DNA of 43,507 bases from Microcaldota archaeon (lineage in GTDB: Archaea > Micrarchaeota > Micrarchaeia > Norongarragalinales > Norongarragalinaceae), in NCBI GenBank assembly GCA_013360305.1, contig JABWCK010000003.1, positions 1 through 43,507 of the forward strand, written 5' to 3'. This document shows positions 9,348-30,975 of the stretch, one piece after another. How positions within the stretch are numbered: the stretch's first letter is position 1; every line of letters begins with the position of its first letter. The notes below the pieces were generated by a model. It was not told the DNA's origin, ran no database searches, and was given only the letters and a program-made list of their open reading frames with translations. The position numbers were made by a program, and so were the translations under genes.

Positions 9348-9411
9348 TTCTTAAATCAATCCTCCAAGATTCGAAGTATATATTCTAATCAAGATAACCG
9401 AATAGTTATTT

Positions 9412-9438
9412 AAAAAGCTTGCGAGGAAGAAGCTTTTT
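9412..9438. repeat. Inverted repeat AAAAAGCTT-N9-AAGCTTTTT between two pilin genes
   Basis: 9-bp perfect arms at 9412-9420 and 9430-9438. Lies downstream of the 9447 stop and upstream of the 8883 gene; could be a terminator or processing hairpin. Confidence 0.6.
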
Positions 9439-9446
9439 GAAAAAAC

Positions 9447-10802
9447 TCAAGAAGTAAAGTACCATACCGTGACTTGAACAAAATTGTTTCTAGTAAAACG
9501 ATTAGTATTAGATGGATTACGAGCTAAAAAGCGCAATCTAATTGAAGCGAAGTCAGCGTAATCAAAGTTTTTACTCAAGTTAGCGGTAACAGTAACATCT
9601 GAATTAGTTGAGACTGGTAAAGGTATAGCGTAATTCAACCAAGTCGAGTTACTTCCTTTAAATGCTTCTAGCTTGGCTTCAGCTATTTGGTTGTGGTTTT
9701 TCTGGTAAACTAGAGTAGCGCTTGAATTGATTACTACCGCGCCAGCCGGCAAGTTATAACTAAACTCGTACTGTTGATAAACGCCCTCATCAAAGGTTAC
9801 CGCATTTTTCGGAACAGCATAATTATCTCGATTATTATCTATAGTCCACAAGTTAGAAGCTGCAAAACTTCCATCAGAAGTATCTGAACCTGCAAAGACA
9901 AGTTTAGAGTCAGGTATTCCTTGCAAGCTGAATGACCTAGAAGCAGAACCAGTGTTTCCAGCTAAGTCATTACAATAGAAGACAACATTATGCGAACCAA
10001 TTCCTCCAATCGTAAACAGTGAATTCCAATTGCCAGTTGAGTTAGTTAACGATTGGTTGGATCCAGAATCAATGCTTACACTACAAGACGAAACTAATTC
10101 ATTCGCAGTAGCATTAAACCAAATCATTCTGCCAAAATAAGTAATCGCAGAAGGCGATTGAATCGACACTACAGGCGGAGTAGTATCCGGAATAGGAGTA
10201 GCAGTTGGTGTAGGCGTTGGCGTAGCAGTGGGAGTAGGAGTTGTAGTAGGAGTGGGCGTAGGAGTATTGCTTACTATTGCGTTGCCGGTTATTTTTCCAG
10301 TAATGAAGCCAGATTCAACGTAATCGTATCCAGTTTCTAAGTCGACGTATTTAATCAACAAAGACATTTCGTAGTAATCGTTATAATTCAACTGAGGCAT
10401 TCCATTCACGGCCAATAAGCCTTTAGCTCCTTGTAATAGTAAGAAACTAGTTGATGCAGTGCCTTGTTGTTGGTCTATTTTACCGCTTATTTCATTGATT
10501 CTTATTTTAGTTCCGGCATTGTTTTTCAAGCTTAAAGCTAGTTCTCCATTAACATCAAGAGACCAATCTAAAGGAACAACGTTCGCGAATCCTTTTCGAG
10601 TCGATCCTTGCAAGGATTTTAAATCAAACACGCCCAAGTAAAACATTGCGCCTAGTACTACTATTAACGCTAAAAAAGCGAATCCGTAAATCGTCAAAAA
10701 CTCCATTGACGCTTGTGCACGCCTAGGGGAGTGGGTCGACCAGTGAGAGGCGCTCCTCTTGGTGGTCGTCAAGAATTTCATTGACGCTTGTGCTTTCTTC
10801 AT
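9447..10802 (-). CDS. Adhesin-type pilin: class III pilin head, PT linker, Ig-like domain and C-terminal beta-sandwich; N-terminus duplicated
   Basis: RRAQASMEFLTIYGFAFLALIVVLGAMFYLGVF pilin helix; [24 protein letters not shown] linker; PDTTPPVVSIQSPSAITYFG..IWFNATANE Ig-like region. ATGA overlap with upstream TadC. Confidence 0.82.
   Translation of the reverse strand: MKKAQASMKFLTTTKRSASHWSTHSPRRAQASMEFLTIYGFAFLALIVVLGAMFYLGVFDLKSLQGSTRKGFANVVPLDWSLDVNGELALSLKNNAGTKIRINEISGKIDQQQGTASTSFLLLQGAKGLLAVNGMPQLNYNDYYEMSLLIKYVDLETGYDYVESGFITGKITGNAIVSNTPTPTPTTTPTPTATPTPTPTATPIPDTTPPVVSIQSPSAITYFGRMIWFNATANELVSSCSVSIDSGSNQSLTNSTGNWNSLFTIGGIGSHNVVFYCNDLAGNTGSASRSFSLQGIPDSKLVFAGSDTSDGSFAASNLWTIDNNRDNYAVPKNAVTFDEGVYQQYEFSYNLPAGAVVINSSATLVYQKNHNQIAEAKLEAFKGSNSTWLNYAIPLPVSTNSDVTVTANLSKNFDYADFASIRLRFLARNPSNTNRFTRNNFVQVTVWYFTS
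10691..10793 (-). repeat. 28-bp direct repeat (25/28 identical) flanking a 47-bp insert in the pilin gene 5' end
   Basis: TCGTCAAAAACTCCATTGACGCTTGTGC (10691-10718) and TCGTCAAGAATTTCATTGACGCTTGTGC (10766-10793). Confidence 0.9.
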
Positions 10803-11746
10803 GCTAGTAATCCTCCGAGGAAGCTAGTCATCAAGAACCTAACTGCAAAAAATAATAGCAAGCCAATTACGAGCATTATTGGGAAGTATTTTAGTCCTTC
10901 AACTTTTTTGCCTGAACGAATAACGCCCATAGCCATTGAACCGAATAAGGTAGTAACAAAGATTGAAGCAACTGAAAACAATATTAGCAAATCGGGTGAA
11001 AAATTAATTCCTTGAGAAACGCTGGCGGAAAAAGGAGTGAATGATACTGCTTGAGTAGGTATTTCAGTAGCGCCATGCAAGCGACCAATGGTTTGGACTA
11101 AGAAAGTGGAAATTCCGTACAATACTGGCGCTCCAATCGTAGTCGCGAAGAAAATAAAGATTTCATAAACCATTACTGTAGCTTGAACTTCTTTTCGTAC
11201 TGAAGCGAATCTCTTCAAGTCAAACGAAGTTTGGTCGAGTAATGAATCCAAGTCTCCTCCAGAACGAAGTCCTTCGACAATCAAGTAAATAGTCTTTTCG
11301 AAGATTTTAGAGTCAACGTGTTTAGTCATTGATGCGAGTGACTCGTCTAAAGGAACGCCGGTCAAGGATTGTTTTGCTGCTCGATCGATTTCTTTAGCTA
11401 GTGGCCCGAATTCTTTTCTAGCAGATAAAAGCAACGCTCTGTCAGGAGTCAATCCTGAACGAATGTTAGCTGCCATTAAAGACAAGAAATCAGGAAGTAA
11501 TTCTTCTATTACTAATGCTCGGCGAGAAGAAATTAAAGACAAAACGAAAAAGAAAAATAAAGGCACGGAAAGCAATCCAAACAAGAAAGCAAACACGGCA
11601 AGCAAAAGGTAATCTCTAGCTAAGAACAAGAATAACGCTATTCCAAACAACAAACTATAAGATAAGATCCTGATAGTGAATTTCCTAGGACTAATCTCTA
11701 GGTCTGACGTTTTCAACAATTTTGCGAAAGTTTTTTCTATAAACAC
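10799..11746 (-). CDS. Type II/IV secretion system F-domain membrane protein (TadC/ArlJ-like), system 1
   Basis: LPDFLSLMAANIRSGLTPDRALLLSARKEFGPLAKEI..AKQSLTGVPLDESL..VEGLRSGGDLDSLLDQ, multiple TM segments. Confidence 0.85.
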   Translation of the reverse strand: MFIEKTFAKLLKTSDLEISPRKFTIRILSYSLLFGIALFLFLARDYLLLAVFAFLFGLLSVPLFFFFVLSLISSRRALVIEELLPDFLSLMAANIRSGLTPDRALLLSARKEFGPLAKEIDRAAKQSLTGVPLDESLASMTKHVDSKIFEKTIYLIVEGLRSGGDLDSLLDQTSFDLKRFASVRKEVQATVMVYEIFIFFATTIGAPVLYGISTFLVQTIGRLHGATEIPTQAVSFTPFSASVSQGINFSPDLLILFSVASIFVTTLFGSMAMGVIRSGKKVEGLKYFPIMLVIGLLLFFAVRFLMTSFLGGLLA

Positions 11747-11748
11747 TT

Positions 11749-12633
11749 TTAAATCAACACGCTCGGACGCCTGCTTGAAATTAATCCAATGAAGAAAAAT
11801 TGTATTAAAATCATGAAGAACAAAATCAATGCTAAAACGAATTCATTCAGAGAGATAGGAACGAATGAAACTAAAACGATCAAGAAAACTAAACCAAGAG
11901 TGGGGCCAATTATAGTCAACAACAAGTACATTAAAGCTAGGGGGGATAATTGGCTGCCGAATTTTTTGAAAGCTATTTTTTGTTCTTCAGTCAAGTTAGA
12001 AACTACTGAATTCAATACGCTGGTTAATTCTACTCCTGCCTTTACTGCGTTGGACAACTGCCATATTACGCGCCGGTAGTGGATTGATGGATTCTTTAAA
12101 GCGCTTTTTTCAAGCGAGTCAGCGAAACTCATTCCTCCTTGAACGTCTTTAATAACTATTTCGAATTCTTTAGAAACCGAACCAAATCCTTTCGTCAAGG
12201 AAGTTAATGAATTAAACAAAGGAACGCCAGCAGATGACTGAATGTACAATTGTCTTAACGCAAACAATAAGTCTGCTTCCAACTCGTTGTTTTTTCGTTC
12301 AAGCAATAATTTAGGGTATAACAAAATTAATCCAAAAATAGATAACGCCGCCAAAAAGCTAGTTAATACTCCAACTATTCCTGCTTCGAAGGACAACTTG
12401 TCAAGAACTAACAACACTACTCCAAAGAAAAAACCGAATACTATAAAGTAAAAGAAAAAAGCCAGCAATCCAATCGAAGTAAACTCCCAATCATCGTATT
12501 CACTTTCTAATTGAGCTAGTTCAGTAGACAAGCTAGGGAATGCTTTAGATAACGGTTTTCCCAAGAAGTAAAACAAGTGCATTAATCGCTTGGAAACGCG
12601 TTCTGGAAACGGAAGAAACAATACCGACTTCAC
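11749..12633 (-). CDS. Type II/IV secretion system F-domain membrane protein (TadB/ArlJ-like), system 1
   Basis: LLFALRQLYIQSSAGVPLFNSLTSLTKGFGSVSKEFEIVIKDVQGGMSFADSLEK..WQLSNAVKAGVELTSVLN. Confidence 0.85.
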   Translation of the reverse strand: MKSVLFLPFPERVSKRLMHLFYFLGKPLSKAFPSLSTELAQLESEYDDWEFTSIGLLAFFFYFIVFGFFFGVVLLVLDKLSFEAGIVGVLTSFLAALSIFGLILLYPKLLLERKNNELEADLLFALRQLYIQSSAGVPLFNSLTSLTKGFGSVSKEFEIVIKDVQGGMSFADSLEKSALKNPSIHYRRVIWQLSNAVKAGVELTSVLNSVVSNLTEEQKIAFKKFGSQLSPLALMYLLLTIIGPTLGLVFLIVLVSFVPISLNEFVLALILFFMILIQFFFIGLISSRRPSVLI

Positions 12634-14099
12634 TTCTTCCTCACTCTCTTCAATAATTCTTCCTTGTCGCTATAATACAACGCGAATACTTCACCTACTC
12701 CGTCAACAGTGTTAACGTCTTGTTTGACTAGCCAGTCGAGAATTTTTTGCTTTTCCTTCAAATCGTCAGCTACTTGTTCTTCATTCATTCTAGTAAAAGT
12801 CATTAACGACTCCATTAAACGAATGCTAGGCTGGTCTGGTTCGAATGAGTCTTTAAACGCCTTCCACTTGTATAAAATGCTTGCAGAAACGTGTTCTCCT
12901 TTTTCCGAAGGAATCAACTCGCCAACTTCAAAAACTCTTCGAATTCCTGAACGCTTGTCTCGATACATTGCTACGACTAAATGCAAGCTTTCAAGCATTA
13001 CTCCAGGCAAATCAATAGGCGGATTATTCAACCTGCGCAGTGTTTCTGAAACAGTTTCAGCATGCAAAGTAGCATAAACAGAGTGTCCAGTGTGCATGGC
13101 TTCAAACAATACTTGAGCTTCTTCTGCACGGCGGACTTCGCCGACGATTATCCTATCCGGCCTCATTCTCAACGAGTTAACCATTAAGTCAAGCATTTCC
13201 ACCTTGCCGTGTTCTTCAGCGCCTGTTTCTCTAACTACTAACGGAACCCACTGTAAGTGTTTTGGTAAAGTAATTTCTCGAGTTTGTTCAATGCTGATGA
13301 CTCTTTGGTTTTGAGGAATGAATGCAGTCAAAACATTCAAGAAACTAGTTTTTCCCGAACCAGTGCCTCCAGAAACCAGTACGTTCATTTCGTACTGCAT
13401 TGCTAGCCACAACAAGGCAGCTAGTTCTGAAGAAATAGTATTGTTCTTAATCAAGTCAGTAATAGTCCATGGTTTTCTAGCGAATTTACGAATAGTAATC
13501 GTATTACCAAACATGCTTATGGGAAACAAAGTAGCGTTTACACGATCGCCAGTAATCAAGTAAGCATCAAGCAACGGGTTTTGAATATTGATTTGCCTGC
13601 CAACGCGTCGTCCAATCAATCCAGCGTAATTGGAAACAACCGAGTCTGAAGGCAAGTTAATGTTAGTTTTAACCCAGCCGTGTTTTCGATGAAAAACCCA
13701 AATGGGTTCAGTGGATGAATTAATGCAGATTTCTTCAATCCAATCATCCTTCAACAAGAACTCGATCTTGTCTAAACCAAACATTTCTTGAAGCAATCTT
13801 CCCGCAATAATAGTTTTCTCGCGATCGGACAAGCTAGGGAATTTTGAATTTACTAAGGATTTCCCTTCGTCAGAAAATTTCTTTTTTAACTCCTTCAAGT
13901 TTCGGGGATCTAAAATTTCTTGATTGTTGAAAACCAAGTTCTTCAACAAGGTTTGTTTTAATACATTCAAGTAATTCTCAGTAGCTTCACCCAAGAAGGG
14001 AATTTCTAGAGAATAAATCGGAACGTATTCTCCTTCCTTGTTGGAAATAACTACTCTAGCAGGAACGCCGTCTGCTTCAATACTGTAAGAATCACTCAA
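12630..14099 (-). CDS. Type II/IV secretion ATPase (TadA/CpaF/VirB11-like), system 1
   Basis: Walker A VSGGTGSGKTSFLN; NSLRMRPDRIIVGEVRRAEEAQVLFEAMHTGHSVYATLHAE. Confidence 0.95.
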   Translation of the reverse strand: MSDSYSIEADGVPARVVISNKEGEYVPIYSLEIPFLGEATENYLNVLKQTLLKNLVFNNQEILDPRNLKELKKKFSDEGKSLVNSKFPSLSDREKTIIAGRLLQEMFGLDKIEFLLKDDWIEEICINSSTEPIWVFHRKHGWVKTNINLPSDSVVSNYAGLIGRRVGRQINIQNPLLDAYLITGDRVNATLFPISMFGNTITIRKFARKPWTITDLIKNNTISSELAALLWLAMQYEMNVLVSGGTGSGKTSFLNVLTAFIPQNQRVISIEQTREITLPKHLQWVPLVVRETGAEEHGKVEMLDLMVNSLRMRPDRIIVGEVRRAEEAQVLFEAMHTGHSVYATLHAETVSETLRRLNNPPIDLPGVMLESLHLVVAMYRDKRSGIRRVFEVGELIPSEKGEHVSASILYKWKAFKDSFEPDQPSIRLMESLMTFTRMNEEQVADDLKEKQKILDWLVKQDVNTVDGVGEVFALYYSDKEELLKRVRKK

Positions 14100-14365
14100 G
14101 ACTTATCCCTCAAAATCAATTCACCAAACAACGAGTAAGAAACAACAACCAAGCCAGCATCTTGCAAAGCAGACGCCCATTCTTCTATTTTTTCTTTCGA
14201 CACTCTACAATGTTTAGCCGCTTCAGAACCGGAAACTTTCTTCTTTTTTTGAATTAACGAATACAATTCATCAATACCCGTAACGACTCGATCAACCATT
14301 TGAGCCGGCAAAACATTAGTTGTTTTGTGTTCCTTCTTTTTTGAAACAACTTTCTTTTTCTTCAT
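14096..14365 (-). CDS. Small winged-helix protein, system 1
   Basis: VSGSEAAKHCRVSKEKIEEWASALQDAGLVVVSYSLFGELIL, similar to the N-terminus of 23029..23910; 4-bp overlap with ATPase. Confidence 0.65.
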   Translation of the reverse strand: MKKKKVVSKKKEHKTTNVLPAQMVDRVVTGIDELYSLIQKKKKVSGSEAAKHCRVSKEKIEEWASALQDAGLVVVSYSLFGELILRDKS

Positions 14366-15072
14366 CTAGAAATCCTCACTGAACCAGTACGGTTCGCGAC
14401 AATACTAAAAACGCTTAACACATTAATTAACTCTACTGGAGACGCGTCAAAAGAAGATTCGACTACTGCAGAAACCTTAGTCGAATAACGACATTCAACT
14501 CCGCAAGAAACAACCAACAAACCGCTAGTAGAATTGAAAACAAACGTGTTGTCAAAACTCTTGTCTACTAGCGATTCAAAAACGAGCGGAGTAGACGAAT
14601 TAACCAATAACTTCAACAACAAAGCATTCTCACCTAAAGCCGGAGTAATTTGTTCAGAAACTAGATTCATTTCTTCAACAGGGTAAACCCGCAAGTCGAC
14701 TTCACTTAAAGCAGTAGAATCGAAAACTACATCTCCACCAGAATGCTTGTAAATGCCTTTCCCGAAATAAAACTCCGGCTCAATAACTTGCTTGCTTAAT
14801 TCAACGTTTTTGAAGAAAGAATTTTCAAACTCTACGTAACTAGCAACGTTATCGAAAGAACTTGCAGGCAACGCATCCCTAAAGACGACTCTGCCAGAGT
14901 TATATGAAACAACTAGGCCTTTTGAGGCATACAAATCGCGCAAGTTGTCTTCAATTCCAGAATACTGGTATTGGATAGAATAATCAATTAAACTCGTTTT
15001 TTGAGTAGTTGAAGCAAGCAAGTACAGCAACGAAAACAACAAAGCCAGTGCCACAGAATAAAAGCCCTTCAT
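14362..15072 (-). CDS. Single-TM pilus-cluster protein (pseudopilin-like), system 1
   Basis: MKGFYSVALALLFSLLYLLAS N-terminal helix; ATGA-type overlaps; collinear with 24532..25464. Confidence 0.6.
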   Translation of the reverse strand: MKGFYSVALALLFSLLYLLASTTQKTSLIDYSIQYQYSGIEDNLRDLYASKGLVVSYNSGRVVFRDALPASSFDNVASYVEFENSFFKNVELSKQVIEPEFYFGKGIYKHSGGDVVFDSTALSEVDLRVYPVEEMNLVSEQITPALGENALLLKLLVNSSTPLVFESLVDKSFDNTFVFNSTSGLLVVSCGVECRYSTKVSAVVESSFDASPVELINVLSVFSIVANRTGSVRISR

Positions 15073-15449
15073 TCGAACACCCTTAATTCAAACACGCCGT
15101 AAACCGGCAGTCCGTTTTCAATAAAGACAAACGATTGTCTTACTGCAGACTTAGTAAAGCCTTCGTTACTTCCTAAAAGTAATTCATTAGTTAGCGAAAG
15201 ATTTTCGTCATAGTAAGAAACGTTAGCGTAATAATTATCACCAACCAACAGTTTCAATTCTTCATTTAATGAATCAGGCTGTGCAAACAAGTTTTTTTGT
15301 TTTAACACCAAGAAAACATCTTGAGCTTGGAATGAATCCACGTTGTGAACATACATCAAGCTAGACAAAGCAAAAAAGAACAAACCAACTAACAATACCG
15401 AAAACAACGCGTCAATGGAAAAAATTATGCCTTTACTCAAGAACAACAA
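15069..15449 (-). CDS. Short pseudopilin-like protein, system 1
   Basis: SKGIIFSIDALFSVLLVGLFFFALSSLMYV; motif shared with 25455..28982 (KGLVFSLDALFALLL). Confidence 0.6.
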   Translation of the reverse strand: MLFLSKGIIFSIDALFSVLLVGLFFFALSSLMYVHNVDSFQAQDVFLVLKQKNLFAQPDSLNEELKLLVGDNYYANVSYYDENLSLTNELLLGSNEGFTKSAVRQSFVFIENGLPVYGVFELRVFE

Positions 15450-15855
15450 CCCTCAAGTTTATTTCCTCGCCATCCAACAACGCTAGCCGGTTGAAGGCTA
15501 TTCCTCTCGAATAATTTCCTTTACTGAAAGCAATTGATCCGTTAAGCCATTTTGCTTGAACGAAGTAATCAAAACCCACGAAACGCTTTGATTCTTCATA
15601 ATCGAGATTAAGGAAAGAATCGATTTTAGAGTAATTCAATACTCCTGAAGACTCTACTAGTGAAAAACTAGAATCTTCAAACAATAACGCATTTGAAAAC
15701 CGTTGTCCTGCAGCGTTCATTTTAGATTGTTGCGTTTTATAATAAACGGAATCGTACTCTGAATCCCAGTAAGCTAGGAAAACTGAAAGCAACGCAATAA
15801 AGAAAGCAGTAGCAATCAAGAAGTCTATAGAGAATAATTGGCCTTTACGATACAA
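15433..15855 (-). CDS. Short pseudopilin-like protein, system 1
   Basis: RKGQLFSIDFLIATAFFIALLSVFLAYW; motif shared with 28979..30061 (RRGQVFSGDAVL). Confidence 0.62.
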   Translation of the reverse strand: MYRKGQLFSIDFLIATAFFIALLSVFLAYWDSEYDSVYYKTQQSKMNAAGQRFSNALLFEDSSFSLVESSGVLNYSKIDSFLNLDYEESKRFVGFDYFVQAKWLNGSIAFSKGNYSRGIAFNRLALLDGEEINLRVVVLE

Positions 15856-16249
15856 TTACTACCCCCCCTTGATTTGAAACAGTAAATGAATAATTAGCAG
15901 TAAAGTTTTCTGAACCCGAATAAACGCTAGGCGCAGTAATTCTGCACGAAACTATCCTTTCCCCATATCTTACTTGAACTAGCGAAGAATTACCGAAAAC
16001 AAGTATTTCGTAACCAATACCATTACTCAAAGTAGCCGGCAAGTCAACGCTTGAAGAATACCCATCTCCCGAAACGAAAGCATTAGAAAATGAATCTGCA
16101 ACTACGTCGCAAATACTGCTAGCTTCAGAGTAATTTTTCAATAATGCTAAGTCTGATTGCTTGGAAAAATACAAGCCAAAAGCTATAGCAAGCAATAACA
16201 AGAACAAACCGATTACTGAAATGAACTCTACAGAAGCTTGAGCGCGCAT
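15845..16249 (-). CDS. Class III signal peptide pilin-like protein, system 1
   Basis: MRAQASVEFISVIGLFLLLLAIAFGLYF; homologous to 30054..30446 (GDGYSSSVDLPATL versus GSGYSGLFVLPDSL). Confidence 0.78.
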   Translation of the reverse strand: MRAQASVEFISVIGLFLLLLAIAFGLYFSKQSDLALLKNYSEASSICDVVADSFSNAFVSGDGYSSSVDLPATLSNGIGYEILVFGNSSLVQVRYGERIVSCRITAPSVYSGSENFTANYSFTVSNQGGVVIVS

Positions 16250-16327
16250 GTTGAAAGAAATAAATCAAGAGCGCTTAAAACTAGTTTCGAATCTTTTAAA
16301 TTCAGCGTTAGAGTGGTTAATACGAAA

Positions 16328-16717
16328 ATGAAAGCCCAAGTAGCTTTAGAATACGTAGTCTTAATCATAATCAGTCTAGCGATAATAATTCCCGCATATT
16401 ATTTTTACTACAGCGACGCATCTGAACAAATACGCGTATTCCAAACAAAAAAACTAGTAAATGACGTAGCCGAAGAAGCAAACCACGCTTTTTTGCTGGG
16501 TCCGGGAACCATCACTAGACTAAACACGTTCATTCCACAAGGAATAGCCACTCAAGTGAAAAACCACACGATTATAGCCAACTTTAGTACTCGCGCGGGA
16601 GATAACCAGCTTTTTGCTAACACTATACCCTCAATAAACGGGTCCCTGCCGACAAGCCCGGGGGCATACCAAGTAACGCTTATTGTTCATGAAGACGAAA
16701 CCGTCGAAATAAGCTAA
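16328..16717 (+). CDS. Class III signal peptide pilin-like protein (divergent), system 1
   Basis: MKAQVALEYVVLIIISLAIIIPAYYFYY. Start at 16328 rather than 16238; resembles 30476..30907. Confidence 0.75.
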   Translation: MKAQVALEYVVLIIISLAIIIPAYYFYYSDASEQIRVFQTKKLVNDVAEEANHAFLLGPGTITRLNTFIPQGIATQVKNHTIIANFSTRAGDNQLFANTIPSINGSLPTSPGAYQVTLIVHEDETVEIS

Positions 16718-19626: not shown

Positions 19627-20670
19627 TTAACCAAAGAATGAACCAAGCAAGCCGTTAATAGCGCTGTAAGCAAAGAAGAATATTCCGAGCGAACTAATTA
19701 CGAATACTGGCGCCAGCTTTACTCCAGCAGTCCATCTACCGTTGCGTATTACGCCCAGAATTAAAGCGCCAAAAAAGTTAGTAAAGAATATGCTGGCCAC
19801 CGCGAACCAGTAAATATCTTGAGAACTGATTTTTTCTTCATTATTCTGGCCAGGTTTTACAGTAAACAAACCTCCAGGAACTCGTCCGCCTTGTACTTGA
19901 CTAGTATCGATATTTGAAGTAGCAGCTGCTTGTTTTTCAGTAACACTCTCGTTAACTCCCGAGTAAAAAGTACTAACCGCAAACAAAACAGGCGAAACGA
20001 GCACTGAAGCAAAAATAATGAATATAACGTAAGTAATTGTTGAACGAGAAATTTCTCGCTTGATGTTTTGAGAATTTCTAATATCATCCGCTACTTCATC
20101 AAGCAATTGAACCATTTCTCCACCTAAGCGAATGCCTTGAGTGATCAACTTGATAGACCGGTCTAGTGTTTCCGAACGAACGCGTTTAGTCATTTTTTGC
20201 AGTGAATCAGAAATAGTAACTCCAGAAAACGTGTCTGCACTAACTCTGCTTATTTCATCTCTGAAAACGCCGAATTCTGGGCGTGCTGCACTCCAAAAAG
20301 CGTTTTCTAAAGTCATTCCTGCTTTCAAGTTTGAAGAAATAATCTGCAATGCTGACGGCAGAATGTCTTCTATTGCTTTAGCTTTTTTTTCGGCAGCATC
20401 AACTAAGATAAAGTAAAACAAGAATAGTGAAACAACGAAGCCCATTACTGCAGCTAAGACGTGGAATAATTGTTGTTCAGGCGGCAAGTACAATGGCGCT
20501 AAAAAGAACAATAATAAAGAAATTGACGATGAAAAGAACAATACGAATCCTAAGAATAATCGCGCATCCATCGTATAACCAGCTTGCACTAGCAAGTCAG
20601 ATATTCTATCAGTTAGTTTCTTTGGAAATATTTTAGACAAGACATAATAGAAACGATTGAAGGAATTCAT
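19627..20670 (-). CDS. Type II/IV secretion system F-domain membrane protein (TadC-like), system 2
   Basis: LPSALQIISSNLKAGMTLENAFWSAARPEFGVFRDEISRVSADTFSGVTISDSLQKMTKRV..TQGIRLGGEMVQLLDEVADDIR. Confidence 0.87.
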   Translation of the reverse strand: MNSFNRFYYVLSKIFPKKLTDRISDLLVQAGYTMDARLFLGFVLFFSSSISLLLFFLAPLYLPPEQQLFHVLAAVMGFVVSLFLFYFILVDAAEKKAKAIEDILPSALQIISSNLKAGMTLENAFWSAARPEFGVFRDEISRVSADTFSGVTISDSLQKMTKRVRSETLDRSIKLITQGIRLGGEMVQLLDEVADDIRNSQNIKREISRSTITYVIFIIFASVLVSPVLFAVSTFYSGVNESVTEKQAAATSNIDTSQVQGGRVPGGLFTVKPGQNNEEKISSQDIYWFAVASIFFTNFFGALILGVIRNGRWTAGVKLAPVFVISSLGIFFFAYSAINGLLGSFFG

Positions 20671-21557: not shown

Positions 21558-23032
21558 TTGTTACTCTTAACACAGTTCAACACGTAATCCTTATCTCTAT
21601 AATACCAAGCGACTACTCGGCCTACAGAATTTACGTCCCTAATGTTGTTTTTCAACATGAAGTCTAGAATGCTTTCTTTTTCCTTCAAGTCTTGAGCGAT
21701 TTCCTTTTGACTAAAACCAGTGTGAAGCGTAAGCTCGTTAGTCATTCTAACAAAATCGCCTACTTTTTGAAGCCTATCCGTCCTAGGATCCCACTTGTAA
21801 ATCAAGTTTAATGATACTTTGTCATCGCCTGGAACTATTTCTGCCACTTCATAAGTGCGTCTAATACCCGTTCTCCTTTGACGATATTGCACTACCATTA
21901 ATTGAAGAGAACTCAAAACCGTTTCAGGAACATTAATCGGAGGAGAAATCAAACGAGTTCTTGCTTGAGACGCGTCATCAGCGTGCAGCGTGGAGTAAAC
22001 AGAGTGTCCAGTGTGCATGGCTTCGAATAATACTTCTGCTTCTTTTTGTCTACGCGTTTCACCTAAGACTATACGGTCAGGCCTCATTCTCAACGAGTTA
22101 ACCATTAAGTCAAGCATTTCTACGCCTCCTTTTCCTTCAGGGTTTGGTTGGCGAGTAGTCATAGGAACCCAGTGAAGGAAGTCAGGCAATACTAACTCGC
22201 GAGTGTCTTCAATGCTTAAAATTCTTTGAGTTGGAGGACAGAATAATAATATAGCGTTCAAGAAACTAGTTTTTCCTGAACCCGTTCCTCCAGCAACAAT
22301 CATGCTCATTTCGTACTGCATTGCCAGCCAAAACAAGGCTGCTGCTTCAGAAGTCAAAGTATTTAGTTTAGGATCAATCAAGTTGACTATCGTCCACGGG
22401 TCTTTAGCGAATTTCCTGACAGTAATAGTGTTTCCCTTGCTGCTGATAGGCATTAAAGTAGCGTTTACTCTAGAACCACTCAACAAGTGAGCATCCATTA
22501 ATGGATTCAAGTTGGTTATTTGCTTCCCGACGCGGCGGCCAATAATTGAAGAATAATTGTGTATTTGTTCTTCGCTTTTGAAGAAGACGTTAGTCTTTAA
22601 CCAACCGTATTTTTTGTGGTAAACCATTGCAGGTTGAGTGCTTCCGTTGACTACTACTTCTTCGAGAAAATCGTCAGCAAACAAGAATTCTAACTCGCCT
22701 AAACCAAGCATGTCTTGGATTAACCTGCCGACTAAGACGTCTTTCTCTGAATCAGTCATTCCTTGAAATTCGGAGTTAATTAGTTGGTAAGTTCGCGAAA
22801 CTATTTTCTTTTTTACTTCTTCAGCTTGTCTCGGATCCAATAATTCAGAGATTTTTACGTCAACGGTTTCAATGATTTTTTCCTTCAAGTAATCCAAAAC
22901 CAACCTAGTTGGTTCCTTGATGGTAGTGTGAATTACTTCATAAGAATCAATATACTCTTCATCTTTTCTGCTTACTATTATTTTTGCAGGAACATTTTCG
23001 CTTACTACAGAATACTCGCCTAAAACCTTCAT
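21533..23032 (-). CDS. Type II/IV secretion ATPase (TadA/CpaF-like), system 2
   Basis: Walker A VAGGTGSGKTSFLNAIL; NSLRMRPDRIVLGETRRQKEAEVLFEAMHTGHSVYSTLHAD. Clear paralog of 12630..14099. Confidence 0.95.
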   Translation of the reverse strand: MKVLGEYSVVSENVPAKIIVSRKDEEYIDSYEVIHTTIKEPTRLVLDYLKEKIIETVDVKISELLDPRQAEEVKKKIVSRTYQLINSEFQGMTDSEKDVLVGRLIQDMLGLGELEFLFADDFLEEVVVNGSTQPAMVYHKKYGWLKTNVFFKSEEQIHNYSSIIGRRVGKQITNLNPLMDAHLLSGSRVNATLMPISSKGNTITVRKFAKDPWTIVNLIDPKLNTLTSEAAALFWLAMQYEMSMIVAGGTGSGKTSFLNAILLFCPPTQRILSIEDTRELVLPDFLHWVPMTTRQPNPEGKGGVEMLDLMVNSLRMRPDRIVLGETRRQKEAEVLFEAMHTGHSVYSTLHADDASQARTRLISPPINVPETVLSSLQLMVVQYRQRRTGIRRTYEVAEIVPGDDKVSLNLIYKWDPRTDRLQKVGDFVRMTNELTLHTGFSQKEIAQDLKEKESILDFMLKNNIRDVNSVGRVVAWYYRDKDYVLNCVKSNKCEDLLKK

Positions 23033-23910
23033 GAATCATTCACCCGCTTGGAGCTTTTTAACGAATCCCTCAACAAGAATTTAGAATACCGCTTCTTTTT
23101 CTTTGAAGGTTTTCTCGATTTTTTCTTGTTAGCCGCAATTTTAACCAGCAATGAATTAAGAGTAGTCTTAATTTGCTTGGCGGTAGACAAATTGGAGTCG
23201 CTTAATATTTTATTCAAGTTAGGCATTGATTCGTTAGGTGTAGAAATCAATTCATCTTCTTCAAGAATACTTGGTTCTGGTTTTACCGGAACGGGAGTTG
23301 ATTCTTTGACGGGTTTACGTTTGCGAGTGAATGCGCCGGATACTACTTCTTTGAGTTTATGAATCAAGCCTTTCTTTTTAGGTGCAGAAACATTACTGAA
23401 CCTCGCCTTCAAATTAGACAACCGCGTTTCGACTGCTTTTTCTTGTTCTAAGAATTTTTTCTCTTCAACGACGAAAGAAGTTATTTCATTATTCAAACGA
23501 TCTATAGTCGAGAGTATTTTTTGCCTCTCGTTTGGAGACAAGTCTTCTTTTTCTAGCTTTGAAATAAGCATTTCAGCAGCATTTACTTTCCATAAAAAGT
23601 CTTTTCGTGCAAAATCCACGACTTTAACACTGCTATCCACTAAGGAATTTAATTCATCGATCCTGTTTTTAGAAACCAGTACGTCTTGGCTTTTTTCCTT
23701 GCCTTTTTCTTCCTTATAGCTTAAAAATACTTCATTTAAGCCGTAAGAAACATCGATTAGCTTACTTGCTTCGAGAATTTTAACGAGTTTTTCTATCTGC
23801 GCAGGCGAAATAGACATGGCTTTAGATAACTGGTTTATAGTGACTTTCTTGTTAGACTTTATAAAGTCAAAAACATTATCTACGCTGGTCTGAAATTCTT
23901 GGTCTTCCAT
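23029..23910 (-). CDS. Winged-helix plus coiled-coil protein, system 2
   Basis: N-term KVTINQLSKAMSISPAQIEKLVKILEASKLIDVSYGLNEVFLSY; central charged helical region; ATGA-type overlap with ATPase. Confidence 0.65.
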   Translation of the reverse strand: MEDQEFQTSVDNVFDFIKSNKKVTINQLSKAMSISPAQIEKLVKILEASKLIDVSYGLNEVFLSYKEEKGKEKSQDVLVSKNRIDELNSLVDSSVKVVDFARKDFLWKVNAAEMLISKLEKEDLSPNERQKILSTIDRLNNEITSFVVEEKKFLEQEKAVETRLSNLKARFSNVSAPKKKGLIHKLKEVVSGAFTRKRKPVKESTPVPVKPEPSILEEDELISTPNESMPNLNKILSDSNLSTAKQIKTTLNSLLVKIAANKKKSRKPSKKKKRYSKFLLRDSLKSSKRVNDS

Positions 23911-23944: not shown

Positions 23945-24535
23945 TCACCTGCAGGCATATGAAAACAATCTTTTGATTCTTCCCTGGTTGACCATGGAAA
24001 TAGTTAAAACCAAGGGATTATTGTCTCTTACAGTTGAAGTAAATTTTTCTGCTTTGTTAGAGTAAAAAACGCATTTTTCGCCTTGAACCCACTTATCGCA
24101 TTCAAAGCTTAAAGAAATTTTTTCTTCAGCCCAATCAGGGTTTCCAGAATAAAGAGACGCATCGATTACTTGAGAATAGCCTTGAACGTTGTTAGTGAAC
24201 TCAAACGAAAAAGAACCATCGTAATAGACAGAATTCAAATCAAGGAAGTCGAAACCGCTTATTTGCTTGCACAAGCTGAAGAATTCTCCAGCATGGCAGT
24301 ACCCGTATTGGCTTACTTTTTCATTAATTAAAGGAGTTATTAGTTGATTGAATGAATTAGCTACCGACAACGCCAAGTAATCATCGCCCAAGCAAGCGTT
24401 AGCATTCACAGTAGGAGACGGAGTTGGAGTAATAGTTGAAATAGGAGTAGGCGTCAACGTAGGCAGAGTAAAAGAATCTTGTTGTTCGACGCATCCAACG
24501 CAAAACAAAGCCAGCAAGACTAATAATTTTTTCAA
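23945..24535 (-). CDS. Putative lipoprotein with Thr/Pro linker
   Basis: MKKLLVLLALFCVGCVEQQ lipobox-like; LPTLTPTPISTITPTPSPT linker. Confidence 0.6.
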   Translation of the reverse strand: MKKLLVLLALFCVGCVEQQDSFTLPTLTPTPISTITPTPSPTVNANACLGDDYLALSVANSFNQLITPLINEKVSQYGYCHAGEFFSLCKQISGFDFLDLNSVYYDGSFSFEFTNNVQGYSQVIDASLYSGNPDWAEEKISLSFECDKWVQGEKCVFYSNKAEKFTSTVRDNNPLVLTISMVNQGRIKRLFSYACR

Positions 24536-25464
24536 TCAAGGTCAACTCCGTACTTAAAAGCATTAGTAGGATCGATTTTAAATAAGGGGTGATTGAACTC
24601 GGAAGAATTTACAGAATAACCTGCAGGCGTAGTGTCATTGAAATAATAATAATCAACATGACTCTGGTTGGCTTTGATTATCAATCCTTGTGAAATAAAT
24701 TCGTCAACATCAACAAAAGACTCTAACCCTTGGGAAGAATAAACCAAGTGCGTTTTTCCTTCAAGTCTCTCTAAAAATCCCGGTCCAGAAACAGAAGGCA
24801 AATAAACCTTAGTCGAAACCGCTTGATCTAACGCTTCAGGTCCGTAAATAATTGACTGGTTTAAAGACACTTGCCTCTTTACTAAACCAAACGAACTCAA
24901 AGTATACAACGGGTCTTCAATACCATCGGTAGAAACTCTAGATTCAGTAGAAAAAGTCCTAGAATAATTAATTCCTTCATACTTGCTTACTAAATCTACT
25001 TGAAGCGTAGCGTTGAACAATACTTCAAAACCACTTCGTTGCGAAATACTCAAGTTAACTAGTGAAACGTTAGAATCAAACCCAAAAAACTTGCTTTTAG
25101 CCTCCAAACGAGTAATCCATTCCGATAAAGAATTATTTCCCATTAATTGAGAAACGTTTCCGCCATAAGTCTTATTCAACAACAAACTCTCCAAGGCAAT
25201 GGTAGAGTTAACTGCAGGTTGACCGGTTGAAACTATTTCAGCAACTAAAGCAATTACCGCGCTTTTAGAACTAATTTCTAATGCTCTAGGAAAGTCATTA
25301 TCTACTGAAGCAGCATAATTAGCTAACTCTCTACCAACTAGTTTCCTAGTCAAGTCTTTTTCATTAGCAGAAGTAAATTCATTAGAAGTTAAAACTAACA
25401 ACACTATTGGAATCAACAAAAGCAAAACTATCAACGAATAAAAAAATCCTTTTTTCAATTCCAC
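24532..25464 (-). CDS. Single-TM pilus-cluster protein (pseudopilin-like), system 2
   Basis: MELKKGFFYSLIVLLLLIPIVLLVLTS; collinear with 14362..15072. Confidence 0.6.
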   Translation of the reverse strand: MELKKGFFYSLIVLLLLIPIVLLVLTSNEFTSANEKDLTRKLVGRELANYAASVDNDFPRALEISSKSAVIALVAEIVSTGQPAVNSTIALESLLLNKTYGGNVSQLMGNNSLSEWITRLEAKSKFFGFDSNVSLVNLSISQRSGFEVLFNATLQVDLVSKYEGINYSRTFSTESRVSTDGIEDPLYTLSSFGLVKRQVSLNQSIIYGPEALDQAVSTKVYLPSVSGPGFLERLEGKTHLVYSSQGLESFVDVDEFISQGLIIKANQSHVDYYYFNDTTPAGYSVNSSEFNHPLFKIDPTNAFKYGVDLD

Positions 25465-28400
25465 ACCACTACAGTTACTTCAGTCGGCCCCCAAAAGAAC
25501 GGGACTTGCTGGCCAGACAATACATCTATTGAAACGCTTTCGCTCAATTGAACATCAATTGGGTTGCTGAAACTACCCGGCAAACCAGAACCGCTCGCAT
25601 TAACTAAATTAAGCAATGAAAGCAACCTCAACAAAGCATCATCCACCGCGTTCGAAGAAGTATTTAGTTGGTCTACTCCGACGTAACTAGAACCCGCGGA
25701 CTGTAATCCGTCACCAACAGTCAAGTCAACCGAACCGTCTGGAACGCCATCAAAATCAGAATCGTAAAAGACAGTAGCATTTCTCGCCTTGCATTCTGAG
25801 AAAATAGACGAATATCCTACTACCGCCTTGACTCGCAAACCATAAATCACACGATTATCTTGAGAACACAAATTGCTTACCGAAGTAGAATTAGACCCCA
25901 ACTTAACAGTTAACACGTTGTTTTCATCATTCGCTACAAAACTAGCCGGGAACTCCACCAAGAACGGGTCTCCTAGTTTAGAGTAAACCGCGCCGTAATC
26001 ACCTAAATAAAACACGTTGTTGTCACCCAACGAATTAGAAATAGTTACGTTTGAAGTCCATAAGTCTGCAGAGTAAGAAGTTACTTTGACGGATTCAACG
26101 CTTAATTGAGGCGGAACGAAGAAAGATCCCTGACAAGATGGAAACTTGTTGGTTTCTTGAGTTAATAGTATTTCATTAAACTCGTAATCTGGATTAACTG
26201 GATCAAAAGAAACTTCAATATACGAGTCAGGATACAAACTAGTAACCACGTCACCAGTAGCAATGACTGTTTGAGAAGCAGTGCTTTGCTGAATAATTTT
26301 TTCAGCAATGTTCTGGAAAGCGAATTGAAGCTCGGTGGCGTTATTGCTTAAATAGACGCTTCCATTACCGCAGCTAGCTATAGCATTTAAAGTAGAGTTA
26401 GCTAAACCACAAGTAGTTATTGGACCAAAACCTACAGAGTAAACAGTACCGTTTTGTTCATTGTGAACACGGCATGAACTATAATTCGCGTTAAGCATCG
26501 GAATGTTTTGAGTTAGTGAACAAGAATCGTCATCACTACAAGTCAAACCACTAGTAGAATTACCAGAATACAAGTAAGCAGGGAACGTTTGAGTCCATGA
26601 CGCGCCGTTCCATTCAACTACCCCGCCTCGAGAATTTCCTAAAGCAAAACCAAGCGTAGAATTAATTATCCTAATAGTATTCAACGCATAGCTTCCGGAG
26701 TAAACTTGACTCCAAGTAGAACCAGTCCAACGATAAATTCTGCCATCATCAGTTGTAACGAATGCTAAAGTAGAGTTAAAAATGTGGACATCGGTTACAG
26801 TCATGCTTCCCAAGTCTTGGTGAAGCGTCCATGTTGTTCCAGTCCAGCGATAAATTTGTCCACTGCCACCAACAGCAAAACCTAAACTCGAATTGAAAAC
26901 ATCCACCGAATAAAAATTAGTGTTTCCCACATCTTGATATAAGGACCAAGTGTTTCCGTTCCAACGATAAATTTCTCCACTGCTTCCAACAGCAAAAGCA
27001 AGAGTCGAATTATACACTTTAACTCCACGCAAGTTTGAATTTCCTACATCTGTTTGTTCGCTCCAAGTAGTTCCAAACCACCTAACAATTTTACCCGAAG
27101 CGCCTACAGCAAATCCTAGCGTAACATTATACAAGTCAACATCATACAAGTCTTGGCTGCCTAAGTCTTGGGACTCGCTCCAAGAAACGCCATTCCAACT
27201 AAATATTTTATAAGAAGCGCCAACCGCATAAGCAACGCTTGAATTCAAAGCATCAACTCCATAAATAGAATTGCTAGTAGTTGAAGTCGCCGCGCTCCAG
27301 AACGCGTTGTAGTGCACAAACGCTCCAGACTCTCCGCCTTGAATAGTAAATGAAGAATTACTGGCTAAAGCGTTTGAATCAAAACAATAATCAGTACTTC
27401 GATAGTTAGGCACTCCGTCAGTCATCATTACCACGAACCTATTCCTACCTTCAGAGGGCCATTGTGCTAAAATGTTGTAAGCATCATTGATAGCGCAAGA
27501 AATACACGTGCCACCGCCAGTCGAATAAGCATCAACAGCCGCCTTTAATGAAGTAGCATCAGTGCTTAAGTTTACTGCACTGGTTGAAGTGCTGAATGAA
27601 ACTAAACCAATCCTGTTGCCAGGTGTTGCTAAAATAGTGTCAATGAAGTCTTTGTCTACACATTTAGCCACGCTTATTCTTGAAGTAGTTCCCAAGTTAA
27701 TGTTTGAAGAAGAACAATTAGTTACAGTAGTACCAGTAGTTCCATCTTGGTTTACTCTCCAAGCCATAGAACCAGAAACATCTGTTACTAGAATAATATC
27801 TGCATTACCAATGTCGCCACCAGTAATGTTTGCTTCCAAACCTAGTCTCAAAGGAATAGTCTTCAAGCTCAAGTCATCAAAAGAAAAAACGTTAGTGAAA
27901 TTACTGGAATCAACGAAGATTACTCTATCAGAAGAAGTGCTGCCCGAGTCATTTAAAATAGTATAATTACCAACAGTCAAGAAAGTAGTATAATTATTCT
28001 TCAAGTGAAGACTCGCCGAAATATTCGTCACAGTACCAGGAACATAAAGAGAGGAATACTCGTTAACTAACCCATCAACGCCAGTAAAGTAAAAGCGAGT
28101 CGTGTTTTCATTTCCAGGATTGAAGGAATTAGTATCGTAAGTGACTCTGACAAAACCACCGCCAATAAACTGGTTTTTCACATTGCTTCCAGTAAAGTTT
28201 AATTTAAACAAGTTGCTGGAACCCAAGTTTAAAGCACTCAAACAACTTGCATCCGAAACCGTCCACGAATCAACTGACGCGTTGCCTGCAGTCTTGTTGA
28301 ATAAACCGCAATCATAATTATTAACGAACAAAGTAAAGTTGTCGCCTGCATTAAACTCTAAATAAATGTTTGACACATTAGCATCAGCAGGAATATCCGT

Positions 28401-28982
28401 CAAATAAAAGGACAAATTACCCTGTCCGATAAAACCACCCATGAAATAAAAACTCTTTTCTTGTTTTCCGCCTATTTTTTTCAAAGAAGCCCTAGAAACA
28501 CACCCCGTAGCAGGAAGCCCTTTAGCAACGCCAGAAACAAGCCTACGGCTTAAAGCTAATGCATCGTTAGTTCCAGGCTCGCTAGTGTTAAAAACAACAT
28601 CAGTAGAATAATACAAAGCATAATGCAAGCTGGGATTCATTACTTTGCCAAAAAAGTATTGGGATAAGTTTCTAGCAATAGACAAATTCCCCGAGTCACC
28701 AGACGCCCAAAAACCACCAATTAATTCCATCATGGTTTTGTTCACGTCAGTAGAATCCAAAACGCCTTGATTGAACAAGTCTTTAACATACGGGTCAGTT
28801 AACAAGTCCGAAACCTTTGTTTCTGCAAGCAAGTTTACAGACTCCACTGCCGTAGAATGCAAGTTTTCATTATAAACCGCAGGATTAAGCAAATTGTTTG
28901 AAGCTAAATACAAAGCAGGCAAAGCGATTAACACTAGCAATAACGCAAACAAAGCGTCTAAACTGAAAACTAAACCCTTCAC
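25455..28982 (-). CDS. Very large surface protein: pseudopilin-like N-terminus, vWA domain with nested beta-propeller repeats, EF-hand/TSP3-like Ca loop (PilY1-like composition)
   Basis: MKGLVFSLDALFALLLVL; MIDAS DVSGS..GGGTCIS..MMTDG; six about 38-aa repeats (x-D-V-x-x-x-N-S-T-L-x-F-A-V-G-x-S-G-x-I-x-R-W-x-G-x-x-W); DSDFDGVPDGSVD. Confidence 0.85.
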   Translation of the reverse strand: MKGLVFSLDALFALLLVLIALPALYLASNNLLNPAVYNENLHSTAVESVNLLAETKVSDLLTDPYVKDLFNQGVLDSTDVNKTMMELIGGFWASGDSGNLSIARNLSQYFFGKVMNPSLHYALYYSTDVVFNTSEPGTNDALALSRRLVSGVAKGLPATGCVSRASLKKIGGKQEKSFYFMGGFIGQGNLSFYLTDIPADANVSNIYLEFNAGDNFTLFVNNYDCGLFNKTAGNASVDSWTVSDASCLSALNLGSSNLFKLNFTGSNVKNQFIGGGFVRVTYDTNSFNPGNENTTRFYFTGVDGLVNEYSSLYVPGTVTNISASLHLKNNYTTFLTVGNYTILNDSGSTSSDRVIFVDSSNFTNVFSFDDLSLKTIPLRLGLEANITGGDIGNADIILVTDVSGSMAWRVNQDGTTGTTVTNCSSSNINLGTTSRISVAKCVDKDFIDTILATPGNRIGLVSFSTSTSAVNLSTDATSLKAAVDAYSTGGGTCISCAINDAYNILAQWPSEGRNRFVVMMTDGVPNYRSTDYCFDSNALASNSSFTIQGGESGAFVHYNAFWSAATSTTSNSIYGVDALNSSVAYAVGASYKIFSWNGVSWSESQDLGSQDLYDVDLYNVTLGFAVGASGKIVRWFGTTWSEQTDVGNSNLRGVKVYNSTLAFAVGSSGEIYRWNGNTWSLYQDVGNTNFYSVDVFNSSLGFAVGGSGQIYRWTGTTWTLHQDLGSMTVTDVHIFNSTLAFVTTDDGRIYRWTGSTWSQVYSGSYALNTIRIINSTLGFALGNSRGGVVEWNGASWTQTFPAYLYSGNSTSGLTCSDDDSCSLTQNIPMLNANYSSCRVHNEQNGTVYSVGFGPITTCGLANSTLNAIASCGNGSVYLSNNATELQFAFQNIAEKIIQQSTASQTVIATGDVVTSLYPDSYIEVSFDPVNPDYEFNEILLTQETNKFPSCQGSFFVPPQLSVESVKVTSYSADLWTSNVTISNSLGDNNVFYLGDYGAVYSKLGDPFLVEFPASFVANDENNVLTVKLGSNSTSVSNLCSQDNRVIYGLRVKAVVGYSSIFSECKARNATVFYDSDFDGVPDGSVDLTVGDGLQSAGSSYVGVDQLNTSSNAVDDALLRLLSLLNLVNASGSGLPGSFSNPIDVQLSESVSIDVLSGQQVPFFWGPTEVTVVVWN

Positions 28983-30061
28983 CTTACTGCCACCAACAAC
29001 TGCATTACTGCAAGCCTATTCTTACCTACCCCGATCAAAACAGGGCGTTTTACTAGAAAAACATCTTTTTCAGAAACAACATCTTCTCCGAATGACATTT
29101 CTTTACCTATTAAATTAAAGAATTCTTTAGATGTTTTTCCTTGAGACGTCATAGAGTAATCACTCAAGAAGAAAACAAAACCATTGCGTACACGAGAAAA
29201 ACCTGCAAGAGAATGATTCTCGCTGGAAATAACTGAAACAAAACCAGGCTGAGTAGAATTAACAGCCCATTCTTCACCTGAAAAAGACACTTCATCTCCT
29301 ACACTGGCATTGAATACTAAAAAGCTTTTTTGAGATATTTCGGCATTAAAAGAGTTGATTTTTTCTAAAGCAAAAAAAGCACTAGCCGCGTTTTCAGAGC
29401 CGCCTCCTTCGAAAACAATTACTCCCCCATTGTCAAGGAAAACATTCAACAAAGAAGAATTAATTGATGCATTCAAGTCTTCAAAAACAATAGTCGAGTA
29501 AGAATTAATATTGCTAAACAAGTTAGACAAAACTGTTGATTCATCTCCCGAAAAATACTGGCCTTCGCCGTGACTGCTTCCTTCGCCCGCCGCGTCATAA
29601 AAATCCCAATCTAAACCACTATCCGATAAATCCGTTAACAAGCTCGAATCAGTTCCAGCAAAATAAGCAATTTTTTCAAACAATACTCCTGAACGAATAG
29701 GCGTAGACTCATTTGAAAAAACTAGTTGGTAATCATAATTACCCAACCCAAGCAATTCACGACTCGAATCATAATCCAACAAAGTCAATTCTAAAAACTT
29801 AGCAGGATTAATCGATTTACCGTCACTTAAGCCAATACCGGAAACATCATTCTTACTCCAATCAATCGGAACGCCTTGAGTTCTAATCAACGAGTCAGCT
29901 GCACTAGTAGCGTCAACAACTAAAGCACTCCTTTGCTTGAATGCGCCAATCTTTGCATTAGACTCGTTCCAAGCAACACTAACTAAAGACACCGCCAGCA
30001 AGAAAACAACTACGCTTAACACTGCATCGCCGGAAAAAACTTGCCCGCGGCGCTTACACAT
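28979..30061 (-). CDS. Pseudopilin-like protein with possible GATase I/ThuA-like (DUF4350-like) Rossmann domain, system 2
   Basis: MCKRRGQVFSGDAVLSVVVFLLAV; YSTIVFEDLNASINSSLLNVFLDNGGVIVFEGG..NGFVFFLSDYSMTS. Start chosen at MCKRRGQ. Confidence 0.6.
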   Translation of the reverse strand: MCKRRGQVFSGDAVLSVVVFLLAVSLVSVAWNESNAKIGAFKQRSALVVDATSAADSLIRTQGVPIDWSKNDVSGIGLSDGKSINPAKFLELTLLDYDSSRELLGLGNYDYQLVFSNESTPIRSGVLFEKIAYFAGTDSSLLTDLSDSGLDWDFYDAAGEGSSHGEGQYFSGDESTVLSNLFSNINSYSTIVFEDLNASINSSLLNVFLDNGGVIVFEGGGSENAASAFFALEKINSFNAEISQKSFLVFNASVGDEVSFSGEEWAVNSTQPGFVSVISSENHSLAGFSRVRNGFVFFLSDYSMTSQGKTSKEFFNLIGKEMSFGEDVVSEKDVFLVKRPVLIGVGKNRLAVMQLLVAVR

Positions 30062-30446
30062 TAAAGAACAAGAACCCGTCAACATTATTCACCAAGTTTT
30101 CTCCTTTTACTAAAATACCACCAAACGCGTCAGACTGAAGAATAGCCTCGCAATGATTATTAAACCACTCAAAACGCACCCTGCTTTCGCCCGGAATTAG
30201 AGTAGCATTATAGGATTGCCCAAGCAACGAATCAGGCAATACAAACAATCCCGAATAACCAGAACCAGCTGAAAAAGCAGAATCGGCCTCAGCACGAACT
30301 AACCGACACAAGCGCTCTCCCTCTAAGCTAACGCGAGAATCAAGCAAGTCTGTTTGCCTCTCGAAGTAAACGAAAGTAAAAGCTACAAACATCAATAACA
30401 AGATTGTTACTATAGCCATTAATTCAATTGAAACTTGCGCTCGCAT
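30054..30446 (-). CDS. Class III signal peptide pilin-like protein, system 2
   Basis: MRAQVSIELMAIVTILLLMFVAFTFVYF; homologous to 15845..16249. Confidence 0.78.
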   Translation of the reverse strand: MRAQVSIELMAIVTILLLMFVAFTFVYFERQTDLLDSRVSLEGERLCRLVRAEADSAFSAGSGYSGLFVLPDSLLGQSYNATLIPGESRVRFEWFNNHCEAILQSDAFGGILVKGENLVNNVDGFLFFNV

Positions 30447-30475: not shown

Positions 30476-30907
30476 CTAGTTCGCTTGAGTCAAGTTCACG
30501 ACAGTATAATCAGCAAAAGGAACTGCCTTTACTAAAACTCTTTTTACGCCAGGAGTCCTGAATACGTCATCCAAGTCTCCAGTCAAGTTTCCATTAGTAA
30601 CGTAAAAAACATCAGACAAGCCTTCCTTCTTCGACACTCGAACAGACAATTCATTCGCTTGAATAGAAACCGACTCTATATTAGAAGGAACTCTTACTTC
30701 AACCAATAATTGAGCAGGATAACCTTGAGAAAAAACTAAGTCCGCCGACTCGCCAATGTGACGCACTGCTTGCTTAGCGTAACCCAAGTTCAACTCTCCC
30801 TGAACATCAGTGTTGATATTGTTAACAAAAAGCCATACGGGAACTAAAATCAACAAGCTCAAAGCTATAATAGACAAGTATTCTACAGAAGCTTGAGCCT
30901 TTCGCAT
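30476..30907 (-). CDS. Class III signal peptide pilin-like protein, system 2
   Basis: MRKAQASVEYLSIIALSLLILVPVWLFVNN; start at MRKAQ more likely than MSCM. Confidence 0.78.
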   Translation of the reverse strand: MRKAQASVEYLSIIALSLLILVPVWLFVNNINTDVQGELNLGYAKQAVRHIGESADLVFSQGYPAQLLVEVRVPSNIESVSIQANELSVRVSKKEGLSDVFYVTNGNLTGDLDDVFRTPGVKRVLVKAVPFADYTVVNLTQAN

Positions 30908-30975
30908 ACAAGACATTAAACAACTCTGAGATTAAAACAATTACTCTTAAAATAAACAAAAAACTTGATATTCAA

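Follow-up and report, generated by a model that had tools for sequence, protein, structure and literature searches.

How a β-propeller comes to stand inside a von Willebrand factor A (vWA) domain, and what such a protein does on a pilus, is the question raised by a 1175-residue open reading frame (ORF) in the Microcaldota contig JABWCK010000003.1. The window analysed is a stretch of 43,507 nucleotides of this contig, from a genome of 821 kb in 55 contigs, and the comparison set was the phylum, which amounts to ∼ 300 genomes of 0.4–2 Mb, appears as one class and has archaeal-type pilins, as Micrarchaeota would be expected to. The original prediction, made from the sequence alone, was of a PilY1-like protein with a propeller nested in its vWA domain behind a pseudopilin N-terminus. 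The nested arrangement stood up to structure prediction, structure searching and a survey of related archaeal genomes; the kinship with PilY1 did not. The protein (hereafter the giant) is likely to be a tip-located modular minor pilin, acting as an adhesin with an exchangeable binding domain coupled to a metal ion-dependent adhesion site (MIDAS).

Pfam scanning of the giant detected only the first part of the vWA domain (PF00092 positions 1–119, residues 395–531). The MIDAS pattern DxSxS…T…D is present, with the elements originally proposed located on the minus strand at 27768–27782 (DVSGS), 27504–27518 (GGGTC) and 27414–27425 (MTDG). An AlphaFold2 (AF2) model of the full protein was computed from an input alignment of 29 homologous rows and had a predicted local distance difference test score (pLDDT) of 81.4. 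Before the propeller, the model contains the vWA elements β 393–401, α 435–451, β 457–463, β 467–473, α 476–484, α 494–506 and β 513–521; 24 propeller strands follow (573–801), and after them come α 827–843, β 845–852, α 859–871, β 876–879 and α 882–900. The vWA order is complete in the model (β1-α1-β2-β3-α2-α3-β4, propeller, α4-β5-α5-β6-α6), which shows the domain split between β4 and α4 by the propeller and completed afterwards. Indeed, in the insert-free homologues G066 and G013 the PF00092 match spans the break (positions 22–173 and 38–174, respectively), and an AF2 model of G066 displayed the same vWA domain with the propeller absent and β4 running directly into α4. Among the Foldseek hits of this G066 model were numerous vWA domains, the minor pilin PilB and two adhesins of pili, SpaC and Mfa5. 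Repeats that form no propeller, or a following sequence that leaves the vWA sheet incomplete, had been named as outcomes that would speak against nesting, and neither occurred. Beside the MIDAS threonine, a CxxC motif (C107 and C110 of the first row of alignment A3) is invariant in 12 of 12 aligned vWA domains, and is kept even in those without an intact MIDAS.

A hidden Markov model (HMM) of the propeller blade recovered six repeats of ∼ 38 residues (residues 573–799) at 34–57 bits, while the best shuffled sequence reached 5.6. The six repeats of the original prediction are therefore real, but the propeller is probably seven-bladed, with a degenerate first blade. Seven clear, full blades are seen in the homologues G006, G007, G047 and G072, and the blade 1 region of the giant (533–567) scored 3.6 bits, a value equalled by 9 of 500 shuffles, with weak AF2 strands at 547–565. 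When the giant model was searched with Foldseek, the top match was the seven-bladed YCF48 (E 1e-11, 278 columns, TM by target 0.65). YCF48 (PSII_BNR) shares the seven-bladed fold with the giant's propeller but is a stand-alone assembly factor, whereas the propeller of the giant is nested in a vWA domain. By hmmscan, neither PF14870 nor FG-GAP, the integrin α propeller family, matched the giant; PF14870 does match homologues G012 and G047. A pattern search of the genome contigs returned stand-alone propellers only.

The proposed pilin-like N-terminus was supported; the giant's N-module is common to the small pilins that occupy the same operon slot. In the alignment, the N-terminal region of the family shows a conserved [KR][GAS], then a hydrophobic stretch with an acidic residue. 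The final strand of small pilins throughout the phylum resembles the GPTEVTVVVWN at the giant's C-terminus. An HMM of the giants' last 14 residues, applied to small-pilin tails, gave a mean of 0.0 bits and was the best of 82 models; the 81 control models reached at most -1.0 bits on the same tails, and shuffled tails under the giant tail model gave a mean of -2.7 and a maximum of -0.8 bits. These sequence comparisons suggest that the ectodomain of the giant most likely interrupts a pilin fold just ahead of its final strand. Neither this further level of nesting nor the exchange of inserts described below formed part of the original prediction. A combined HMM of N-module and C-terminal strand scored < 1 bit above the best control, and the separate tail test was used in its place. 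As in other modular type IV pilins, a functional domain is carried on a pilin module, and the gene context contains pilin, ATPase and platform genes.

The proposed location in an archaeal pilus operon was supported, and the operon is conserved: the order is pilin, two minor pilins, giant, minor pilin, winged-helix protein, ATPase and two platform proteins. All 11 genomes of the host order that carry the giant also have an orthologue of the ATPase, and no giant was found in the 10 genomes of that order without the orthologue. Five genomes have the operon and no giant; in these a pilin of 143–208 aa occupies the slot, and the slot pilin of G011 clearly matches the giant's N-module. The window contains a second pilus operon, and the pilin in its corresponding slot, of 126 aa, aligns with giant residues 2–64 (blastp E 7e-4, HMM E 5e-6). 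This second operon (8883–16717) is complete, with its own ATPase (50% identical) and platform proteins.

The slot bears directly on the resemblance to PilY1, from which it could be argued that the giant is a biogenesis factor that initiates the assembly of pili and controls their retraction through Ca binding, adhesion being a secondary role. The parts are the same, since PilY1/PilC also combine a vWA domain, a propeller (seven-bladed in the giant) and a Ca-type loop, and their genes likewise lie beside those of minor pilins. However, sister operons have only a pilin of 126–208 aa in the slot, and large domains therefore do not look needed for pilus assembly. PilY1/PilC differ further in their linear domain order, as the original prediction had recognized, in their PF05567 propeller and in the Ca site within it (PMC8179133, PMC13190605, PMC11891296). 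PilY1 is not a pilin (PMC8179133), whereas the giant itself is one. The giant had no match to PF05567 at E ≤ 1 by hmmscan; a phylum-wide PF05567 search was also empty, but control genomes were silent too, and only the direct scan counts. The EF-hand Ca site of PilY1 lies in propeller blade IV (PMC11891296). In the giant the only Ca-type loop noted, the DSDFDGVPDG already picked out from the sequence, falls at scaffold residues 1074–1083, outside the propeller. The DxDxDG loop is kept in G066, G013, G023 and G025, which include relatives without a propeller or without a vWA domain, and is a feature of the scaffold. A role of the PilY1 type is thus unlikely.

Across the family the scaffold is conserved with all insert types, while the insert itself is exchanged. 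A propeller occupies the β4-α4 position (site C) in G000, G006, G007, G008, G012, G014, G015, G047, G072, G078 and G080. CARDB repeats are found between β2 and β3 (site A, ARM1-like) in G025, G057 and the second G072 gene, and both G001 copies have another β-rich domain, with no clear family match, between α3 and β4 (site B). G066 and G013 have no insert in the vWA domain, and in G023 the vWA domain is missing with the scaffold intact. G066 and the propeller-bearing G080 belong to the same genus yet differ in insert state. In a tree of the scaffold, the approximately unbiased (AU) test rejected one common clade of propeller-bearing members (p = 0.0005), but nesting of G001, with its other insert, within the propeller-bearing family was not established (AU p = 0.32); Fitch counts of insert changes were ambiguous. 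G012 carries two tandem propeller genes encoding 1701 and 1301 aa (locus L029, G012:C79 3234–12372), of which the first, with roughly double the number of blade-like repeats, possibly encodes two propellers. An assignment of the G025 insert to DUF2341 was dropped when Pfam did not confirm it, and vWA proteins of 1713 and 1788 aa from G006 and G039 are different surface proteins that do not belong to the family. In another pilin-like family, of 800–950 aa, a further nested vWA domain is interrupted between β1 and α1 by ∼ 90 residues (L059 4358–6760, L060 4661–7099, L123 13–2856).

The state of the MIDAS follows that of the insert. All 17 copies with an insert retain its residues, and the two copies without one have degenerate versions (ERAHS and AQSAS), a co-occurrence with a chance of 1 in 171 by count alone, kinship ignored. 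This pattern does not sit well with the idea that the inserts are structural, lengthening or stiffening the pilus end as a spacer or cap, with the MIDAS a relic of folding. The insert type is highly variable and the insert can be absent, and the loss of the entire vWA domain in G023 might also be read in that way; yet every insert-bearing copy has the MIDAS, only copies lacking an insert have lost it, and the closest vWA relatives are adhesins. A purely structural role is accordingly very improbable.

Those relatives were identified with a vWA profile from which the inserts had been cut out. Its matches in the PDB were Mfa5 (4e-15), Streptococcus sanguinis PilB (1e-9), GBS104 (7e-7) and RrgA (7e-5), and these pilus-tip adhesins are the nearest vWA relatives of the giant. 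The match breaks after the DG of β4, from residue 123 to 224 in Mfa5 and from 289 to 340 in PilB. In Mfa5, ARM2 links the fourth strand to the fourth helix as an insertion; it is described as mimicking a portion of integrin αV, and in RrgA, GBS104 and Mfa5 such extra loops make a lid over the MIDAS cleft (PMC7835359). Like the giant, a putative pilus adhesin, these three have a MIDAS vWA domain, a β4-α4 insertion near the MIDAS and flanking β domains (PMC7835359). The propeller of the giant therefore occupies the ARM2 slot, and its position is not unique. The view that the giant represents a distinct solution holds for the insert, whose size and kind are new: ARM2 of RrgA, GBS104 and Mfa5 comprises 98–123 aa, whereas the giant has a whole propeller of ∼ 270 aa, and their pili are of the sortase or type V kind, whereas that of the giant is an archaeal type IV pilus. 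PilB resembles the giant in carrying a pilin module and a MIDAS vWA domain on one chain, with an arm at the post-TDG site (PMC8179133). Unlike in the giant, that arm is not a propeller, and the vWA domain of PilB follows the pilin module via a linker, whereas in the giant the final pilin strand appears to follow an inserted ectodomain.

Other systems share single aspects of this design. The integrin head also brings a MIDAS vWA domain and a seven-bladed propeller together, but in α integrins the vWA domain is inserted in the propeller, whereas the giant has the propeller inserted in the vWA domain, on one chain. In the RTX adhesin AhLap a vWA domain buds an inserted module before completing its own fold (PMC12077191), although the insert is of 9 kDa and the protein is not a pilin. 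ComZ and GspK have a large domain inserted into, rather than appended to, the pilin sheet (PMC8179133), but it is a β-solenoid or α domain and there is no vWA domain. A literature search, which covered few subscription papers, found no description of a propeller inside a vWA domain, and a census of archaeal type IV pili lists adhesins and vWA regulators with propellers unmentioned (PMC4858521). It is decidedly unlikely that the propeller is a catalytic or nutrient-binding domain on a secretion pseudopilus, making the giant a surface enzyme or substrate catcher rather than an adhesin: propellers are often enzymes or binding platforms and the best fold match, YCF48, binds peptide, but no enzyme family was matched in the giant's propeller by profile scans and the inserts of other types (CARDB, Ig-like) are domains that typically serve in binding or as spacers.

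For a modular pilin adhesin, the following arrangement may be proposed. After cleavage by prepilin peptidase, the N-terminal hydrophobic helix would pack into the end of the archaeal type IV pilus, and the β-rich ectodomain would act as a stalk presenting the vWA domain, whose metal site would adjoin the seven-bladed propeller of the β4-α4 loop. The propeller, with the MIDAS rim, would bind the partner, which may be another cell's surface, a glycan or a mineral. Exchange of the insert at the ARM2, ARM1-like or α3-β4 site, with pilin and stalk retained, could change binding specificity and leave the pilus unchanged. In bacteria, modular pilins display their functional modules, probably at the tip of the pilus (PMC8179133), and in RTX adhesins the domains that bud from split domains are ligand binders (PMC12077191). 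By analogy with these precedents, binding probably falls to the propeller, with the vWA domain as its holder and partner. More tentatively, the MIDAS and the ARM2-slot propeller might form one composite ligand cleft, an integrin-like head evolved independently in archaea, with an exchangeable cartridge (propeller, CARDB array or other β domain) retargeting the type IV pilus to a new host or partner and the MIDAS kept only together with a cartridge.

Several points weigh against an adhesin of this kind. PF04021, the class III signal family, did not match the giant, and the prepilin call thus rests on the pattern of KG followed by hydrophobic and acidic residues, together with the neighbouring genes. 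The predicted template modelling score (pTM) of the full model was 0.49 and linkers 535–567 and 801–804 were of low confidence, so that the modelled angle between propeller and MIDAS is tentative. The link between MIDAS and insert depends on two insert-free copies. Finally, whereas the analysis shows the homology, the nested domains, the slot in the operon, the insert exchange and the joint occurrence of insert and MIDAS, we infer the position of the giant at the tip, its adhesion, its binding of metal and its class of ligand.

Features of the giant gene and of its operon are collected in Table 1. In four genomes the pilus ATPase has an in-frame interruption of ∼ 180 aa close to the ATP-binding region, around residue 277 (L090 9477–11546, L091 9252–11336, G017:C29 and G027:C62), which is probably an intein. 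Elsewhere in the window (1763–6911), two large secreted proteins have proline/threonine linkers and weak M6-like metalloprotease signals (HEFSH, HELGH).

Table 1. Coordinates of the giant, its domains and the surrounding pilus genes in the window.
Feature	Position	Strand	Basis
Giant modular minor pilin, 1175 aa, GTG start	25455..28982	minus	ORF and full-length homologues
Pilin N-module, residues 1-157: prepilin-like MKG followed by LVFSLDALFALLL, helices and first strands	28512..28982	minus	Alignment; homology to short pilins
N-terminal β-rich ectodomain, residues 158-386	27825..28511	minus	AF2 strands; kept in vWA-less G023
vWA first part, residues 393-532, β1 to β4, DVSGS/GGGT/TDG MIDAS motifs	27387..27806	minus	PF00092 positions 1-119; AF2
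YCF48-like seven-bladed β-propeller (probable), residues 533-806, between β4 and α4, blade 1 degenerate	26565..27386	minus	Repeat HMM, AF2, Foldseek
vWA second part, residues 823-904, α4-β5-α5-β6-α6	26271..26516	minus	AF2; insert-free G066/G013 match PF00092 across break
C-terminal β-rich scaffold domain, residues 905-1148	25539..26270	minus	AF2; conserved across all insert types
DxDxDGxxDG Ca-type loop, residues 1074-1083, within scaffold	25734..25763	minus	Sequence; homologue table
C-terminal strand GPTEVTVVVWN, putative last strand of split pilin fold	25458..25511	minus	Tail HMM test; alignment
Pilin of operon, class III signal-like	30476..30916	minus	Conserved in other loci
Minor pilin of operon	30054..30446	minus	Conserved in other loci
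Minor pilin directly upstream of giant gene	28979..30085	minus	Conserved neighbour
Minor pilin-like protein directly downstream of giant	24532..25464	minus	Conserved neighbour
Cytoplasmic winged-helix/coiled-coil protein of operon	23029..23910	minus	Weak helix-turn-helix matches; conserved
Pilus assembly ATPase, T2SSE, PF00437	21533..23032	minus	Orthologue in 11/11 giant-bearing genomes of order
Platform protein 1, T2SSF, PF00482	20667..21557	minus	Pfam; conserved
Platform protein 2, FlaJ/TadC-like	19627..20670	minus	Conserved in other loci
126-aa small pilin, matching slot of second pilus operon (10799..16717)	15069..15449	minus	N-module and C-terminal strand similarity

Overall, one conserved pilus slot yields products that range from a 126-aa pilin up to a nested, putative adhesin of 2000 aa, and the head of the giant is the mirror image of the integrin α head, in which the vWA domain lies in the propeller. 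The family offers a natural series, in which the same vWA domain is found with a propeller, with CARDB, with another domain or with nothing, for studying the effects of insertion on the MIDAS. For partner recognition by small, mostly uncultured archaea, the giant family provides concrete, testable candidates.

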